Origin: Pseudobutyrivibrio ruminis
GTDB taxonomy: Bacteria > Bacillota > Clostridia > Lachnospirales > Lachnospiraceae
Assembly (NCBI GenBank): GCA_015057315.1
Contig: SVER01000016.1
Location: forward strand, 1 to 64,000
Reading direction: 5' to 3'
Length of the DNA: 64,000 bases
A program made the translations under genes and the position numbers. Positions 35,267 through 50,802 of this stretch are shown here, one piece after another. Each line of letters opens with the position of its first letter. The first letter of the stretch is position 1. The notes beneath the pieces are model-generated. The model did no database searches and was not told the DNA's origin. It saw nothing but the letters and a program-made list of their open reading frames with translations.

Positions 35267-35367
35267 CCCTCATCAGTCGGCTGCGCCGACAGCTTCTTCT
35301 CCGCTGCCGCTCCGGTCGGCTCAGAGCAGAGGTCCACTGGACCTCTTGAGCCCCAGAGGGGGAAGCC
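35267..35367 (-). repeat. long (101-bp) stop-codon hairpin repeat, pyrG 3' end
   Basis: Starts with CCCTCATCAGTCGGCTGCG and ends with GAGGGGGAAGCC as read on the plus strand. It is 101 bp, as is the copy at 41649-41749, and the middle ~60 bp are identical. It includes the stem GTCGGC/GCCGAC and a perfect AGAGGTCCA/TGGACCTCT hairpin. On the minus strand it begins 3 bp after the pyrG stop codon, so it forms the 3' end of that transcript. Confidence 0.85.
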
Positions 35368-35370
35368 GAT

Positions 35371-36963
35371 TTATTTAAGGCTTGCTTTAATGAAAGCTGT
35401 AAATAATGGATGTGGTTTGTTTGGGCGGCTCTTAAATTCTGGGTGGAACTGAACACCTACATGGAACTTGTTAGATGAAACTTCGATAGCTTCAACTACC
35501 TCATCATTAGGTGATGTACCAGAAATTGTAAGCCCCTTTTCTGTCATAAGCTCTCTGTATGAATTGTTAAACTCAAATCTATGTCTGTGACGTTCTGAAA
35601 TATTCTCGCTGCCGTATGCTTCAAAAAGCTTAGTATCTTTTCTAACTGCACATGGATAAGCACCAAGACGCATTGTACCGCCCTTTCTAAGAACAGCCAT
35701 CTGCTCTTCCATAAGATCGATTACACAGTTCTTACCTGTGCTGTTAAACTCACGTGAATTAGCATCTGCAAGTCCACATACATTACGTGCAAATTCAATA
35801 GCTGCAACCTGCATACCAAGGCATATGCCAAGATATGGGATATCATTTTCACGAGCGTACTGGCAGGCAACAATCTTACCTTCTACGCCTCTATCACCGA
35901 AACCACCTGGAACAAGAATACCATCACACATGCCAAGTCTATCCTTAACATTATCCCTTGTGATTTCCTCTGAGTCAACCCATTCAATCTCAACATGGGC
36001 ATCATTAGCATAACCGCCATGATAAAGAGCCTCGCGAACTGAAAGGTATGCATCATGAAGTGCAACATACTTACCAACGATTGCAATTCTAGTAGTCTTC
36101 TTAAGACCCTTGATAGTATCAACCATCTTCTCCCACTCTTCAATCTTTGGAGTAGGATTATCAAGACCAAGCTCACGGCAAACAACATCATCAAGGCCAT
36201 ACTTATGCATCATAAGTGGTGCTTCATATAGACAATCAAGTGTGTCATTTTCGATTACACAATCCTTCTTAACATTACAGAATAAAGAAATCTTATCCTT
36301 AATAGACTGCTCAAGTGGATGATCTACACGGCAAACAATAATGTTTGGTGAGATACCAAGTGACTGAAGCTCCTTAACAGAATGCTGTGTTGGCTTTGAC
36401 TTGTGTTCCTCTGAGCCTGAAAGCCATGGTACAAGTGTTACGTGAATAAATAAGCAGTTCTCACGTCCCTTTTCAAGTGAAACCTGACGAATAGCCTCAA
36501 TGAATGGCTGAGATTCTATATCACCAGTTGTACCACCGATTTCTGTAATAAGAACATCACAGCCAGATGTCTCTGCACCCATGTAAATGAAACGCTTGAT
36601 TTCCTCAGTGATGTGAGGGATAACCTGAACTGTCTGTCCAAGATATTCGCCCTTTCTCTCACGATTAAGAACATTCCAGTAAACCTTACCAGATGTAAGA
36701 TTAGAGTACTTGTTAAGACTCTCATCAATAAAACGCTCATAATGTCCTAAATCAAGGTCTGTCTCAGCACCATCGTCTGTTACAAAAACCTCTCCATGCT
36801 GATAAGGACTCATTGTGCCAGGGTCAACATTCATATAAGGATCCAGCTTCTGTGAAGCCACCTTATAACCTCTCATCTTTAACAGACGTCCTAAAGAAGC
36901 TGCTGTGATACCCTTGCCTAAGCCTGATACTACACCACCTGTTACAAATACATGCTTTGTCAT
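35371..36963 (-). CDS. pyrG: CTP synthase
   Basis: Makes CTP from UTP, ATP and glutamine in the cytoplasm. 530 residues, the usual length. The N-terminal synthetase domain opens with [17 protein letters not shown] and includes [18 protein letters not shown]; the C-terminal glutamine amidotransferase domain has the nucleophile Cys in LGICLGMQ and the His-Glu pair in [10 protein letters not shown]. The ATG follows AAGGAG at six bases. Upstream is a 146-base leader with a terminator-like hairpin, so expression is probably set by attenuation. Codon use suggests strong expression. Confidence 0.97.
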
Positions 36964-37048
36964 TCTACACTCCTTAATTTGTATTATTCATTGGATTACA
37001 TCATTAATAGAAATCTTAAATAGATATTTGTGACATATTTCCTCCTGA

Positions 37049-37101
37049 AAATAGAAAAAGCGTTTTTTTTTTGAAGGAATGCCTCCAAAAAAATAAACGC
37101 T
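37049..37101 (-). promoter_or_regulatory. pyrG leader hairpin with U-tract, probable attenuator
   Basis: On the minus strand AGCGTTTATTTTTTTGGAGG pairs with CCTTCAAAAAAAAAACGCT around a 4-base loop, followed by TTTTCTATTTT. It lies between the promoter and the start codon with no other gene on that strand. The A/T runs make it an unusual stem. The predicted transcript start does not begin with GGGC, unlike the known CTP-sensing pyrG leaders. Confidence 0.55.
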
Positions 37102-37115
37102 CAAATTACTGTAAA

Positions 37116-37144
37116 ATATTACAACAAGAGGATAGATTTGTAAA
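37116..37144 (-). promoter_or_regulatory. sigma-A promoter of pyrG
   Basis: On the minus strand TTTACA (37144-37139), 17 bp, TAATAT (37121-37116). Predicted start near 37109, about 146 bases before the pyrG ATG. The gap 36964-37331 contains this promoter, the leader hairpin and a repeat, and no gene. Confidence 0.6.
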
Positions 37145-37177
37145 GAGGGAAATTTTTCTAAATATTCAACGTGTTTA

Positions 37178-37224
37178 CCCCTCATCAGTCAGCTGCGCTG
37201 ACAGCTTCCCCCCAAGGGGAAGCC
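37178..37224 (-). repeat. short (47-bp) hairpin repeat
   Basis: Reads CCCTCATCAGTCAGCTGCGC and continues to GGGGAAGCC on the plus strand. Two stems: GTCAGC/GCTGAC around TGC, and GCTTCCCC/GGGGAAGC. It is the same size as the copy at 41587-41633. Unlike the other copies it does not follow a stop codon; it lies between the pyrG promoter and the activase gene. Confidence 0.85.
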
Positions 37225-37331
37225 AATTTTATAACATATTTAATAATTTGTTTATTGTATATTTTTTCATCTACATTTATAATACCTCATGTTGTATAAA
37301 ATACTTTTTAATAGGAAAGAATTATTATTTT

Positions 37332-40300
37332 ATGGAAAACAAGTTATTTAAACTAGGTATTGATATCGGCTCTACAACAGTTAAAATTGCAGTTTTAGAT
37401 GACGATGACAATCTTTTATTTTCAGATTATCAGAGACACTTTGCTAACATTCAGCAAACTCTCACTGATTTATTAACACAGGCCAAGTCAACACTTGGTA
37501 AGATTCAGGTTCGTCCTATGATTACAGGTTCAGGCGGACTTACACTTGCTAAGCATCTTGGTGTTGAATTTGTACAGGAGGTTATCGCAGTTTCTACTGC
37601 CCTTACTCACTATGCTCCTCAGACAGATGTTGCAATCGAGCTTGGTGGTGAGGATGCCAAAATCATCTATTTTGAGAATGGTAATGTAGAGCAGCGTATG
37701 AACGGTATCTGTGCAGGTGGTACAGGTTCATTTATTGACCAGATGGCATCTTTACTTCAGACAGATGCACCAGGTCTTAACGCATACGCAAAGGATTATA
37801 AGGCACTTTATCCTATAGCTGCTCGTTGTGGTGTTTTCGCCAAGACTGATATTCAGCCTCTTATCAACGAAGGTGCTTCTAAGGAAGATTTGTCTGCTTC
37901 TATTTTCCAGGCAGTTGTTAACCAGACTATTTCAGGTCTTGCTTGTGGTAAGCCTATCCGCGGTCACGTTGCATTCCTTGGTGGTCCACTTCACTTTTTG
38001 GATCAGCTTAGAGCAGCATTTATCCGTACACTTAAGTTAGATGATGAGCACGCTATCCTTCTTGATAACTCTCATCTTTTTGCAGCTATCGGTTCTGCTC
38101 TTAATTCAAAGGAAGAAAACAACGTTCCTATGGACGACCTTATCGACAAGCTTTCTGAAGGAATTAAGATGGACTTTGAGGTTGCCAGACTTGAGCCATT
38201 ATTTGATGGTGAAGATGATTTCAGAGCCTTCAAGGACAGACATGCAAAGGCAGAGGTTAAAAAGGGCGATTTAGCTAACTATCATGGTAATGTTTACCTT
38301 GGTATCGATGCTGGTTCTACCACTACAAAGCTTGCGGTTGTTGGTGATGATGGAACACTTCTTTATTCCTTCTACTCAAGCAATAACGGTAGCCCACTTG
38401 CTACTTCACTTAAGGCACTTAAAGAGATTTACTCTATCATGCCTGAGGATACACATATCGTGCATTCTTGCTCAACAGGTTACGGTGAAGCTTTACTTAA
38501 GGCTGCACTTCAGCTTGATGATGGCGAGGTTGAGACAATTGCTCACTACTATGCTGCAGCATTCTTCGACCCTGATGTAGATTGTATCCTTGATATCGGT
38601 GGTCAGGATATGAAATGTATCCGCATCAAAAACGGCGTAGTTGATAGCGTACAGCTTAACGAAGCATGTTCTTCTGGTTGTGGTTCTTTCATCGAGACTT
38701 TTGCTAAGTCACTTGATTTCACAGTTCAGGATTTTGCCGAAGAAGCACTTTTTGCTTTGAACCCAATCGACCTTGGTACACGTTGTACTGTATTTATGAA
38801 TTCAAAGGTTAAGCAGGCTCAGAAGGAAGGCGCATCAGTTGCTGATATTTCTGCAGGTCTTGCTTACTCTGTAATAAAGAACGCACTCTTCAAGGTTATC
38901 AAGCTTTCTGATGCATCAGAGCTTGGTAAGAACATCGTTGTTCAGGGTGGCACATTCTACAATGATGCTGTTCTTCGTTCCCTTGAAAAGGTTGCAGGTG
39001 TTAATGTAATTCGTCCTGATATTGCAGGTATCATGGGAGCCTTCGGTTGTGCCCTTATCGCTAAGGAGCGTTACGAGGAAAATCCTACCACTACTACACT
39101 TGGCATTGATGAGATTAACAATCTTACATTTGATACAAAGCTTACTCGTTGTCAGGGCTGCGTAAACCACTGCTTACTTACAATCAACAGATTCTCTGGC
39201 GGTCGTTCATTCATCACTGGTAACAGATGTGAAAAGGGTGCAGGCGGTGTTAAAAATAAGGAAAACATCCCTAACCTTTACGAATACAAATACAACAGAT
39301 TATTTGATTATGAGCCTCTTTCTGAGGAAGAAGCTACTCGTGGTACTGTTGGTATTCCACGTGTACTCAACCTTTACGAAAATTACCCATTCTGGGCTAC
39401 ATTCTTTAAGGCTCTTAAATTTAGAGTAGTTCTCTCTCCTCGTTCAAACCGTAAGGTTTACGAAATGGGTATCGAATCAATCCCATCTGAGTCAGAATGC
39501 TACCCAGCCAAGATGGCACACGGTCATGTTCAGTGGCTCATTAACGAAGGCAATGTGGACTTCATTTACTATCCATGTATTCCATACGAAAGAAATGAGT
39601 TCCCAGATTCAAACAACCACTACAACTGCCCTATCGTTACATCTTACGCAGAAAACATTAAGAACAACGTAGACGAAATCACAACTGGTAAGGTTCGTTT
39701 TCTTAATCCATTTATGGCTTTCTCTTCTGAGGAGATTCTTACAACTCAGCTTGAAAAGGTATTTAAGGAAGAGTTTGATATTGACGCTTCTGAGGTTAAG
39801 GCAGCTGCCCATGCAGCATGGCTTGAGCAGGAACATTTCAGAAATGATATGTACGCTAAGGGCCAGGAAGTTCTGAAATACTTAGAGGAAACAGGAAAGC
39901 ATGGTATCGTTCTAGCAGGCCGCCCTTACCACGTAGACCCAGAGATTAACCACGGTATTCCAGAGCTTATTAACAGCTACGGCATCGCAGTACTTACTGA
40001 GGATTCTATTTCTAACCTTGGTGAGGTTGAGCGTCCTCTTATCGTTATGGACCAGTGGATGTTCCACTCTCGTATGTACTCAGCTGCTAACTACGTTAAG
40101 AAGCATGACAACTTAGATTTAATTCAGCTTAACTCATTCGGTTGCGGTCTTGATGCCGTTACAACTGATCAGGTTGCTGATATCCTTACAAACTCTGGCA
40201 AGATTTACACTTGCCTTAAGATTGATGAGGTTAACAACCTTGGCGCTGCTCGTATCAGAGTACGTTCTCTACTTGCTGCACTTCGTGTTAAGAAGAAGAA

Positions 40301-41582
40301 AAAGCAGGAGCGCACAATTGTTCCAGCTAATTACAACCGTATCGTATTTACAGAGGAAATGAAGAAGAATTACACAATCCTCTGCCCACAGATGTCACCT
40401 ATCCACTTTGAATTAATCGAGCCTGCATTTAACGCAGCTGGTTACAACCTGGTGATTCCAGATATTCCTACACGTACCTGTGTAGATGTGGGACTTAAGT
40501 ATGTTAACAACGATGCATGCTACCCTTCACTTATGGTAATCGGACAGCTTATGGCTGCTATCAATTCAGGTGAGTTTGATATGAGCCGTACCGCTCTTCT
40601 CATCTCACAGACAGGTGGTGGATGTCGTGCTTCCAACTACATTGGCTTCATCAGACGTGCACTTGCAAAGGCAGGCTATCCTGATGTTCCAGTTATTTCA
40701 ATGAACCTTAACGGCTTCGAGCCAAACCCTGGATTTAAGCTTACTCCTAGCCTTATCCAACACGGACTTTACGCTCTTACATTTGGTGATATTTTACTTC
40801 GCTGTGTATATCGCGTTCGTCCTTACGAAGCAGTTCCTGGTTCTACAGACGAGCTTCACAACAAGTGGAAAAAACAAGTTATCGATTTTGTTTCTAATAC
40901 AAAGATTCTTTCTCACCGCAAGTTCAAGAGAATGTGCCGTGAAATGATTCGCGATTTCGATAACCTTCCTATTATAGAAGGACTTAAGAAGCCACGTGTT
41001 GGTATCGTAGGAGAAATCCTTGTTAAGTTCCTTCCAGCAGCTAATAATCATCTTGCTGAATTACTTGAGCAGGAAGGTGCTGAAGCAGTTGTACCAGACC
41101 TTACAGACTTCCTCCTTTACAGTTTCTACAATGCAAACTTTAAGGAAGAAAACCTTGGTGCTAGCCGAAAGACTAAGTTCATGTGTAACCTTGGAATTAA
41201 GTTCTTTGAATGGCTCAGAAGTGCTGCTAGAGATGAATTTAACAAGTCTAAGAGATTCACTGCTCCAGCATACATTACAGATACTGCAGCTAATGCTAAA
41301 GAAATCGTATCAATTGGTAACCAGACTGGTGAGGGATGGTTCCTTACAGGTGAAATGCTTGAGCTTATCGAAACTGGTGCAAGCAACATCGTATGTATCC
41401 AGCCTTTCGGTTGCTTACCTAACCACGTAGTTGGTAAGGGTGTTATTAAGCGTATTCGCCATGAGCACCCAGAAGCTAATATCGTAGCCATCGACTACGA
41501 TCCAGGTGCTTCAGAAGTAAACCAGCTGAACAGAATTAAGCTTATGCTTTCTACAGCAAATAAGAATTTAGCTAAAGCATAA
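37332..41582 (+). CDS. giant 2-hydroxyacyl-CoA dehydratase activase-like protein (fused)
   Basis: 1416 residues from ATG 37332, where [16 protein letters not shown] begins a normal domain; the 87 codons before it run through the hairpin repeat and do not look coding. Two BcrAD/BadFG-type ATPase domains: residues 4-260 ([17 protein letters not shown]) and ~320-585 ([20 protein letters not shown]), where Cys residues sit as in HgdC-type activases that carry a [4Fe-4S] cluster. A DUF2229-like region follows near 685-900 ([24 protein letters not shown]), then a dehydratase-subunit-like C-terminus ([20 protein letters not shown]). These proteins are common in anaerobes and their substrate is unknown. 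Arg codons are mostly CGT and C-ending codons are frequent, so it is probably highly expressed. Confidence 0.9.
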
Positions 41583-41586
41583 AAAA

Positions 41587-41633
41587 GGCTTCTCCCTCCG
41601 GGAGAAGCTGTCACCGCAGGTGACTGATGAGGG
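41587..41633 (+). repeat. short (47-bp) stop-codon hairpin repeat, activase 3' end
   Basis: Plus-strand orientation opposite to the other copies: GGCTTCTCCC to GATGAGGG, so relative to its own gene it is in the same orientation. Stems GCTTCTCCC/GGGAGAAGC and GTCACC/GGTGAC. It starts 4 bases after the activase stop codon. Confidence 0.85.
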
Positions 41634-41648
41634 AATTCATATAGTTGA

Positions 41649-41749
41649 CCCTCATCCGTCTGCTGCGCAGACACCTTCTTCTCCGCTGCCGCTCCGGTCG
41701 GCTCAGAGCAGAGGTCCACTGGACCTCTTGAGCCCCAGCGGAGGAAGGC
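41649..41749 (-). repeat. long (101-bp) stop-codon hairpin repeat, GH13 3' end
   Basis: Same length as the copy at 35267-35367 and nearly identical in the middle. Stem GTCTGC/GCAGAC and closing pair CTCCGCTG/CAGCGGAG. On the minus strand it begins 3 bp after the GH13 stop codon. With the short copy at 41587 it forms a back-to-back pair between convergent genes. Confidence 0.85.
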
Positions 41750-41752
41750 TTT

Positions 41753-43387
41753 TTATATGTTAGATGCTACGATTCTAAATTCGTATGGTTTGAGGTAAGT
41801 GTTTTCTGCCTCTTCAATATCATAATTTCCAAATACTATTTTATCCCCATAGAATTCTACTGACCTATTGCAGCTAGATAAATTACAGTAAATATATAAT
41901 CTCTGTTCATCTGATTCTCTAGTGAATATATATACGTCACTTGGAGATGCTACACGGCGGTAAGTACCTTCGTTAAGGGCATGGGAGCCTTTTCTGTATT
42001 CTATCATCTTCTTGTAGAAATTAAGGATACTATTCTCATCCTCTTTCTCATCCTTTACGTTGATATAGCTTTTATTTGCATTAATCTTTAACCATGGTGT
42101 GCCTGTAGTAAAGCCTGCACCCTCAGATGAATCCCATTGTACCGGTGTACGTGCGTTATCCCTGGTAGTGCGAAGAATAAGATGTCTTCTTATAGAATGT
42201 ACAAGCAATAGCCTTTTCATTGCCTGATTGACACTGGCAGATTCCACATCCTTTAAGTCTCTAAGACCTCTGAAATCTCCATTAGTCATTCCTATTTCTT
42301 CACCTTCGTAAATAAATGGAAGGCCTTTCAAGCAAAGATTAAGGCCGCATAAAAGCTTTGCACTCTTCTCCCAGAATTTACCTGTATTACCAAAGTGATT
42401 AACAGAGCGTATCTGATCATGGTTCTCAAGATAATTAGCTGGAACCTCTAATGCCTTCTGCCACTTATCTAGTATTCTTATAAGCCTACATGGTTTATAA
42501 GCTTTTTTAAACCATTTAACACCTCTGCTATCTACATCCATGTGTTCAAAGAAGAAAACAGCATCTAACTCTTTTCTACTTTCGTCACTAAGAAGCTTAG
42601 CATCATCAGGTGTTACAAATACAGTTTCACCCACTATGAAGGTCTTGTATTTGCTCCATACCTCTGCATTAAATCTCTGTATTAATTCATGACATCCCTC
42701 TGTGTTAAGATAATGTTCCTTACCAGTGAGTGCAAATCTTCTTTTTCCATTCTCTAAAGATTCTTTGTATATAATATTTATTACGTCACATCTGAAGCCT
42801 GCTACACCCTTATCAAGCCAAAAGCGCATAATATCAGTGATTTCCTCATAAACATCAGAATTGTGCCAATTTAAATCAGGCTGTTTTTTACTAAACAAGT
42901 GAAGGTAGTAATCACCATTTTCAGTCTTAGTCCATGCTTTGCCGCCAAAGAATGAACCCCAGTTATTAGGTGCCTTCCTTCCTTTTCCATCTCTGAAATA
43001 ATAGTAATCTCTATATTTACTATCACCAGCCAATGCCTTCTTAAACCACTCATGCTCATCTGATGTGTGGTTAATTACCAAATCCATAATTATTTTTATT
43101 CCAAGTCTCTTAGCACGGCTGATAAGCTTTTCCATATCCTCCATAGTGCCAAATTCAGGATTGATGCCCTTATAATCAGAAATATCATAGCCATTGTCAT
43201 AGCCAGGGCTTGGATAAACAGGGCTTAGCCAAATAACATCTACGCCCAGTTCCTTAAGATAATGAAGTTTAGATATGATTCCAGGGATATCACCTATCCC
43301 ATCCCCATTACTATCACAAAATGATCGTGGATAAATTTGATATACTATCGCATTCTTCCACCATTTTTTTGTACTAGAAGTTGCCAT
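41753..43387 (-). CDS. GH13 oligo-1,6-glucosidase / alpha-glucosidase
   Basis: 544 residues, no signal peptide. GH13 subfamily 31 features: VYQIYPRSFCDSNGDGIGDI, the region-I motif MDLVINHTS, QPDLNWHN, nucleophile D201 in GFRCDVIN, acid/base E254 in IVGETV and the transition-state Asp in ENHDQIRS. The residue after the nucleophile is Val, which in this subfamily goes with alpha-1,6 specificity, where Ala or Thr goes with alpha-1,4. It has its own promoter and stands alone, a few kilobases from a LacI-controlled sugar importer that might feed it. Confidence 0.92.
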   Translation of the reverse strand: MATSSTKKWWKNAIVYQIYPRSFCDSNGDGIGDIPGIISKLHYLKELGVDVIWLSPVYPSPGYDNGYDISDYKGINPEFGTMEDMEKLISRAKRLGIKIIMDLVINHTSDEHEWFKKALAGDSKYRDYYYFRDGKGRKAPNNWGSFFGGKAWTKTENGDYYLHLFSKKQPDLNWHNSDVYEEITDIMRFWLDKGVAGFRCDVINIIYKESLENGKRRFALTGKEHYLNTEGCHELIQRFNAEVWSKYKTFIVGETVFVTPDDAKLLSDESRKELDAVFFFEHMDVDSRGVKWFKKAYKPCRLIRILDKWQKALEVPANYLENHDQIRSVNHFGNTGKFWEKSAKLLCGLNLCLKGLPFIYEGEEIGMTNGDFRGLRDLKDVESASVNQAMKRLLLVHSIRRHLILRTTRDNARTPVQWDSSEGAGFTTGTPWLKINANKSYINVKDEKEDENSILNFYKKMIEYRKGSHALNEGTYRRVASPSDVYIFTRESDEQRLYIYCNLSSCNRSVEFYGDKIVFGNYDIEEAENTYLKPYEFRIVASNI

Positions 43388-50697: not shown

Positions 50698-50710
50698 TTT
50701 TTAGATAGAA

Positions 50711-50765
50711 CCCTCATCCGTCTGCTGCGCATACACCTTGTCTTGCCTCCCGGCTTGGTCGTTTC
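50711..50765 (-). repeat. degenerate copy of the hairpin repeat
   Basis: CCCTCATCCGTCTGCTGCGC is almost the start of the copy at 41649, but the stem has a mismatch (GTCTGC/GCATAC) and the remaining part has diverged. It follows the H1-like gene's terminator on the minus strand. Confidence 0.6.
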
Positions 50766-50767
50766 TA

Positions 50768-50802
50768 AAAAAATAAGCGTTATCGTATATACGATAACGC
50801 TT
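50768..50802 (-). terminator. intrinsic terminator of the H1-like gene, perfect 28-bp palindrome
   Basis: AAGCGTTATCGTAT with its exact complement ATACGATAACGCTT, then ATTTTTTTAG on the minus strand. It contains the recurrent ATCGTATATACGAT motif (50782-50795). The gap 50480-50831 holds this terminator, a repeat, two operators and the CUT1 promoter; no gene is seen. Confidence 0.85.

Follow-up and report, generated by a model that had tools for sequence, protein, structure and literature searches.

According to our analysis, the 64,000-nt stretch of Pseudobutyrivibrio ruminis DNA considered here (assembly GCA_015057315.1, contig SVER01000016.1, positions 1 to 64,000; hereafter, the window) contains copies of a dispersed intergenic repeat that is very probably of the BoxC/PIT (potential intrastrand triplex) kind. 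Judging by its sequence, the G-rich strand of this element would fold into an intrastrand purine-motif triplex, and the element would be selfish DNA with the life style of repetitive extragenic palindromes (REP) and bacterial interspersed mosaic elements (BIME). A first-pass annotation of the window described four copies in two size classes (101 and 47 bp) with paired changes in stem 1; the copies, their coordinates, their sizes and the stem-1 pairs are all as it gave them. Its proposal of a selected fold in a dispersed, REP/BIME-like repeat also holds, on the evidence of the stem pairing, the double changes and the third-strand covariation described below. The main feature that it missed is the third strand itself. 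The copies in the window and their parts are as follows:

35267..35367, + strand, 101 bp: long copy 1, A-type; the given strand is the pyrimidine-rich "top" strand
35267-35275, 35276-35290, 35291: third-strand complement, hairpin 1 and spacer of copy 1
35292-35296 plus 35351-35354, 35355-35357, 35358-35366: 5' arm, loop and 3' arm of stem 2 of copy 1
35297-35350: 54-bp insert of copy 1
37178..37224, + strand, 47 bp: short copy 2, A-type
37179-37187, 37188-37202, 37204-37223: third-strand complement, hairpin 1 and stem 2 of copy 2
41587..41633, - strand, 47 bp: short copy 3, A-type, with an ACC hairpin
41649..41749, + strand, 101 bp: long copy 4, C-type, with a TGC hairpin
50710..50770 (end approximate), + strand: degenerate C-type copy (the fifth), which has lost the 3' arm of stem 2 and retains a portion of the second insert kind

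The host genome (3.42 Mb in 97 contigs, 94.5% complete) was searched with the pattern CCTCATCMGTCNNCTNCGNNGNCASCTT, allowing up to three mismatches. This gave 86 copies (49 forward and 37 reverse), and because the reversed control matched nowhere, they are not chance occurrences. Of these, 64 are short, 9 carry one kind of long insert and 11 the other, and in 2 the 3' end is unreadable. A covariance model built on 62 short copies, the check that the first-pass annotation had suggested for the genome and its relatives, gave 119 matches in the genome, and the element was found in 22 of the 29 genomes of the genus Pseudobutyrivibrio.

Stems, third strand and triads

The two stems were tested on 62 of the 64 short copies, two being left out as exact repeats of another row. 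In these rows 96.5% of the cells of stems 1 and 2 are paired, against 44–54% with slid partners. The paired substitutions first noticed in four copies are present across the other copies of the genome as well: 82 cells have a double change, against 24.8 in shuffles, and none of 500 shuffles reached 82. Neither the count of doubly changed pairs (5) nor that of further pair types (10) exceeded the shuffles. Stem 1 had been described as perfectly paired and always around TGC, which is true of the four window copies but not of the family, where position 2 is unpaired in 12 and position 3 in 6 of the 86 copies and the loop may also be TTC, TAC or others.

Read along the G-rich strand, the element consists of a pyrimidine arm, a loop, a purine arm, a T, hairpin 1 and a purine third strand, so that the strand layout of PIT elements (pyrimidine arm, purine arm and 3' reverse-Hoogsteen purine strand) is present on one strand. 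The third strand, GGATGAGGG in the C-type and TGATGAGGG in the A-type, mirrors the purine arm; on the opposite strand, the flank CCTCATC[A/C] ahead of hairpin 1 is an in-register mirror of the stem-2 5' arm. Position y10 matches the basal pair of stem 2 in 82 of the 84 resolved copies (of 86), with A beside G:C in 54 and C beside C:G in 28. The two exceptions are one mismatch and one hybrid, and the site of the hybrid carries a matched A-type in a close species (L072). Position y2 follows pair 9: among the short copies (n = 64) it is C beside C:G in 46 and A beside T:A in 9, and 9 have other combinations. Its strongest mutual-information partner is pair 9 with the neighbouring bases; the adjacent hairpin loop follows weakly.

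A scan that left the third strand free, and asked for a hairpin, a single spacer base and seven or more stem pairs, was run over 2.69 Mb of loci and gave 319 structures. In all of them, with no selection, compatible triads occupy 2,775 of 2,827 cells (2,424 being G.GC, A.AT and T.AT; 351 A.GC, T.CG and C.AT). When third strands were shuffled within genomes (183 distinct rows, 1,000 shuffles), the mean was 1,476 and the maximum 1,500, against 1,546 of 1,595 cells observed, a value that no shuffle reached. In register, 97–100% of the triads are compatible in each of four groups, against 44–73% at shifts of one or two. Ten structures have fewer than 6 of 8 compatible triads and resemble other or chance hairpins. 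The other 309, a set thus chosen for compatibility, have 2,737 of 2,752 cells that fit the purine motif (G.GC 1606, A.AT 432, T.AT 367, A.GC 183, T.CG 147, C.AT 2, others 15).

These contacts match an antiparallel purine-motif DNA triple helix. Affinity-cleaving work is reported to have found A.GC and T.CG to be moderately stable or tolerated in this motif. The strict definition of a PIT element asks for 8 or more positions with no more than one mismatch. Among the four third/arm combinations that occur most often, strict counting gives 7 or 8 of 8 triads for three and 6 of 8 for the A-type with C:G at pair 6; each of the four reaches 8 of 8 once A.GC and T.CG are allowed. The strict set, G.GC, A.AT and T.AT, consists of triads known for the purine motif, according to the available portion of Holder et al. 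(2015; PMC4666352).

A third-strand-free pattern was run on 61 genomes of another family. It matched in 27 of them, many of these being chance matches, and the reversed control gave matches as well; a real hairpin is present in 33 rows. In 18 of these, stem 2 has seven or more unbroken pairs, and 17 of the 18 carry the third strand predicted from the arm, in the arm/third sets GGAAGGGG/GGATGAGG (one with GAATGAGG), CGAAGGGG/TGATGAGG and CGAGAGGG/TGAGAGGG; the remaining row (L426) is a hybrid that joins GGATGAGG with the arm CGAAGGGG. Nine rows from one genome, two of which look like one copy counted twice, have the arm CGAGGGGG, the third pair of stem 2 being mismatched, and the third strand is TGAGGGGG in eight and AGAGGGGG in one. 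Two rows have a matching third strand and have lost stem 2, and four (L389, L391, L405, L412) are without stem 2 and have unrelated flanks. This search, which ignores the third strand and so avoids the bias noted below for the scan, yielded new matched arm/third sets (CGAGAGGG/TGAGAGGG, CGAGGGGG/TGAGGGGG and CGAAGGGG/TGATGAGG).

The long class had been explained as the short one with 54 bp in the second loop. The orthologous sites in other genomes of the genus carry the short form, and comparison with these alleles places the insert inside the stem-2 5' arm, between CTTC and CCCC; moreover, there are two kinds of insert, not one. Both are about 54 nt long and lie at nearly the same point of stem 2, the first being represented by 35297-35350 and the matching stretch of copy 4, the second by sites such as L025 and L061. 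Each kind has a hairpin of its own (GAGGTCC/GGACCTC and GGCTCC/GGAGCC around ACT), and the two share short motifs and may be related. Half-units, which consist of CCCTCATC and hairpin 1 only, are stacked before a complete element in L100, L107, L128 and L240, at their counterpart of the 35267 site; it looks as if flank and hairpin could be added by themselves.

Distribution, placement and turnover

In an order-wide sample the strict pattern was found in 6 of 246 genomes, 5 of them in the genus, and in a phylum-wide sample the covariance model with stricter filters was positive in 11 of 398, the two weakest of which may be chance; the source genome is counted in both. A scan of species genomes gave at least 117 stretches with the element. 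Among the 80 matches listed, the Clostridia are represented by Lachnospiraceae, Oscillospiraceae, Gemmiger and Ruminococcus, and the Alphaproteobacteria by Mesorhizobium, Caulobacter, Brevundimonas, Pelagibacterium and Aquamicrobium. Coupling of y10 with y27 holds in 125 of 126 resolved copies (of 133) from the at least 117 stretches, in 120 of the 126 with the 3' base matching too. Outside the genus, among the 80 matches listed, all 77 copies with a readable 3' base agree, and 6 are unreadable. The short pattern also occurs in 86 viral-contig stretches of IMG/VR (L454-L539), where the coupling holds in 85 of 86 resolved copies (of 93), 84 of them with the 3' base matching too. This may suggest that phages or prophages ferry the repeat between hosts. 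One long copy, searched in annotated plasmid and phage collections, had no match in either.

Some half of the copies directly follow a stop codon, the triplex-capable strand being the sense strand. With open reading frames (ORFs) of at least 90 aa from our own caller, and with copies at orthologous sites of related genomes counted, the stop codon of a gene on the triplex-capable strand lies within -3 to 10 nt of the stem-2 end in 86 of 166 copies, against 12 for the other end. Between tandem genes, the triplex-capable strand is the sense strand in 44 of 51 cases in the source genome and in 51 of 62 in relatives. Copies inside called ORFs (12 of 93 and 15 of 88) perhaps reflect simple ORF calls that overrun the gene ends. 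In the window, copy 3 starts 4 nt past the stop codon of a + strand gene that ends at 41582, and its triplex-capable strand is the + (sense) strand; the stem-2 end of copy 4 is 3 nt from the stop codon of a - strand ORF (41753-43387). The triplex-capable strand lies on the G-rich strand in 27 of 30 copies on the chromosome of G267, where skew was sampled at 20 points and each copy was assigned to the closest (four copies fall between samples of opposite sign), and in 62 of 84 copies in the 20-kb stretches.

Close pairs (gap of up to 40 nt) were sorted by type. Judged by y10, the 22 inverted pairs within the genus comprise 20 A+C and 2 C+C; elsewhere 11 of 23 are A+C and 12 are C+C, 7 of these 12 in one contig, and some sites recur in relatives. 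No inverted A+A pair was seen among the close pairs, either in the genus or elsewhere. The gap of head-to-head pairs is 13–17 nt in 20 of 29, most commonly 15 nt (11 of 29), which is also the distance between copies 3 and 4 of the window.

Comparison with the close species G251 covered 37 copies with both flanks (41 rows, four sites twice) and was read by eye; the flanks are mostly 88–99% identical. At three sites (L018 1519, L084, L094) an A-type and a C-type had been switched together with all coupled bases, and at L078 a CCC-long copy corresponds to a CACC-short one with the coupled pair changed along. An insert was gained or lost at L025, L095 and L052, the hairpin was swapped at L009 1501, and many sites keep their variant. 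Such swaps of type, insert and hairpin between like flanks indicate that variants can be replaced whole at fixed sites. No target-site duplication was apparent in the orthologous comparisons, which included no formal test for one. At L013, L050, L082 and the window sites 37178 and 41587/41649, G251 lacks the element and has other sequence or a remnant, as element-less sites in this close species mostly do, and the exact insertion unit was not obtained. GTTAG/GTTAC-rich stretches were observed at several of the element-less sites (L102/L240, orthologous to 41587-41749; L013; L050; L082) and are perhaps a second repeat family.

Relation to BoxC and other known repeats

The closest known kind of repeat is BoxC/PIT, of which the element would be a hairpin-capped relative. 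In the portion of Holder et al. (2015) available to us, BoxC/TM_ECO is described as a class II intrastrand triplex whose second loop measures 3 nt, present in 262 proteobacterial genomes, which folds in vitro by circular dichroism and nuclear magnetic resonance; all five BoxC inverted pairs of E. coli K-12 join type A with type B (PMC4666352). Both BoxC and our element have a pyrimidine arm, a loop, a purine arm, a second loop and a purine third strand, both are intergenic, and both form inverted pairs of two types; like the A+B pairs of BoxC, the inverted pairs of the genus are mostly A+C. The two differ in loop 2: BoxC has three nucleotides there (TTA or CCG), and the element has a 1-nt spacer and a hairpin that covaries. 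This lies beyond the loop limits of the published search (1–6 nt) and of an earlier search that it cites (0–10 nt), as given in the same portion of the paper (PMC4666352). The element further differs in its occurrence in Clostridia and Alphaproteobacteria, in the third strands GGATGAGGG/TGATGAGGG of the window copies and in its long inserts.

The window copies do not have the BoxC core CCCTCNCCC ... GGGNGAGGG N3 GGGNGAGGG: their arm and third strand differ (GAAGG, GGATG or TGATG), and a hairpin replaces N3. Two E. coli BoxC records have the arm GGGAGAGGG and the third strand GGGTGAGGG. A Caulobacter class (6 hairpin-capped structures from 5 Caulobacter/Caulobacterales records) agrees with E. 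coli BoxC in all nine letters of both strands, and thus has the BoxC core arms, yet it has the hairpin too. The triplex core is thus common to BoxC and the element, whether by homology or by convergence, and what is new in the element is its hairpin cap. A pattern search of three 50-kb stretches of MG1655 found no BoxC.

In E. coli, REP/BIME sequences are short, palindromic, dispersed, arranged in inverted pairs of two types and located near stop codons, and REPs carry a GTAG-like tetranucleotide at the foot of the hairpin. The element is likewise dispersed, found in inverted pairs of two types and close to stop codons, but no RAYT (REP-associated tyrosine transposase) was found in its genome, and it has no GTAG foot and has an extra stem and a third strand. 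Its foot is CATC[A/C] in the 86 copies, although the search pattern itself contains the foot. The Rhizobium-specific intergenic mosaic elements (RIME), which are palindromic, are likewise Alphaproteobacterial intergenic repeats; compared by name and description only, they may overlap the Mesorhizobium copies. Within the partial coverage of our literature search, which most subscription journals lie outside, we found no account of the Clostridial/Alphaproteobacterial element as a triplex repeat, and the available main text of a 2025 REP survey (PMC12306157) does not contain butyrivibrio, faecalibacterium, clostridi-, mesorhizobium, caulobacter or triplex. Rfam 15 models had no match in the window at gathering scores.

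Proposed mechanism and alternative explanations

In the mechanism that we propose, the third strand would lie antiparallel to the purine arm of stem 2, with hairpin 1 capping the turn. In the cell, the fold would arise where this strand is exposed, either as template of the lagging strand or through displacement behind RNA polymerase, and the folded strand would stall copying. Copies could spread and be swapped in place when strands switch or copies recombine, or a trans-acting enzyme could do this, and any benefit to the host, such as effects on mRNA 3' ends, would be secondary. More tentatively, and with rather less than even confidence, we suggest that the copies of Clostridia and Alphaproteobacteria and the BoxC of E. 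coli might form one superfamily in which the heritable unit is the DNA triplex, the triads are a conserved code, the two types persist because they make inverted pairs, and variants are exchanged as wholes by a dedicated factor that would recognise the strand folded behind stop codons.

As to the folding of bacterial intrastrand triplex repeats in cells, the available part of one study describes triplexes in vitro and no protection in vivo (PMC4666352). A third strand that covaries with its duplex, triad for triad and in different phyla, provides for a DNA triplex the sort of evidence by which RNA helices were established, and it yields a testable rule for the double mutants expected to rescue. 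The family has 119 model matches in a single anaerobe, and its natural swaps between orthologous sites offer a way to see how repeats of this kind spread.

Several points weigh against the triplex reading. Triplex formation is deduced from sequence. Most of the loci in the free-third-strand scan had been drawn by patterns or a model containing the third strand, and the scan is thus not unbiased. Under strict counting, in which A.GC and T.CG are not tolerated, the window copies have 7 or 8 of 9 triads. The long inserts break the arm that the third strand should contact; in the long copies (n = 20), 175 of 180 triads are still compatible when read from the other arm. There are no tandem sites at which sense and leading strand disagree, so the two are inseparable, and C+C pairs are no rarer than A+C pairs beyond the genus. 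Whole-unit replacement alone could keep distant bases linked, and no mobilising enzyme was found. According to the accessible sections of PMC4666352, E. coli BoxC showed no protection from dimethyl sulfate in vivo, with a polymerase stop seen in an assay, and PIT elements block DNA polymerase in vitro without an effect in vivo.

An RNA-level element of 3' untranslated regions appears unlikely. Its two hairpins would be under selection in the sense transcript, as REPs guard mRNA ends, and stem 2 with a T-run would be an antisense terminator. The tight sense placement behind stop codons (86/166) is what such an element would have; stem 2 and the T-run are terminator-like on the pyrimidine strand at 41608-41588 and 37204-37223, and a downstream T-run is common in the genus. 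However, the third strand is unpaired in four computed folds and yet covaries with stem 2, a T-run is not evident by eye behind the listed Alphaproteobacterial copies, and no Rfam model matched in the window. The first-pass annotation had left open a fold in RNA or in single-stranded DNA. We favour single-stranded DNA and give less weight to RNA, because the extra covariation follows the purine-motif code, and purine-motif triplexes are said, in the part of the paper at hand, to be unable to form in RNA (PMC4666352).

It is very improbable that the coupling is mere lineage linkage, with A-type, C-type and CACC-type subfamilies that never recombine. Variants are indeed swapped as blocks, and type correlates with hairpin sequence; nevertheless, hairpins, loops, inserts and pair-6 states are common to the types, the y10/y27 coupling is almost without exception (125/126 in the at least 117 stretches, 85/86 in viral ones), and elsewhere new third strands match new arms.

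A pyrimidine-motif triplex (C+.GC, T.AT) on the pyrimidine-rich strand, or H-DNA in supercoiled duplex, can hardly be the fold: the same mirror symmetry serves both strands and 2,038 of the 2,752 cells of the 309 structures fit, but the motif fails at the top-strand A opposite A:T at positions 4 (289/309) and 9 (49/248) and at the top-strand A at position 1 of the A-types (143/309), and such a fold is more stable in acid, as stated in the available text of PMC4666352.

The first-pass annotation had pointed to a REP-type repeat moved by a TnpA_REP (RAYT) transposase, and this part of it found no support; we consider it highly improbable. A hairpin with a conserved flank, an intergenic position near stop codons and inverted pairs, 13–17 nt apart in 20 of 29 head-to-head cases, would all suit such a repeat. 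On the other side, the flank is CCTCATC[A/C] and not GTAG, and a search of the genome with PF01797 (Y1 transposase) gave no match, an absence that is not absolute at 94.5% completeness. A Y1 match of some kind is present in 10 of the 29 genomes of the genus, and the element occurs in 9 of these 10 and in 13 of the 19 others, with no clear association; a scan of 18 Y1 loci found no element nearby.

Two other candidates were rejected. On the G-rich strand, CTGATGAG resembles the hammerhead core, but the C-types read CGGATGAG and the window has no Rfam match. Recognition in IS200/IS605 involves mirror-like base contacts between guide and cleavage site; here, the would-be guide would be inside the helix, and no Y1 gene was found in the genome.

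By reading, three Y1 proteins of the genus are RAYT-like (L136 in G246, L141 in G261 and L137 in G250; 206 aa, with 137 aa called in L137). Their genomes hold 26 (G246), 103 (G261) and 0 (G250) copies of the element, numbers that also speak against a RAYT as its mover. In L137 and L136, a small ORF resembling a helix-turn-helix regulator adjoins the RAYT-like gene.

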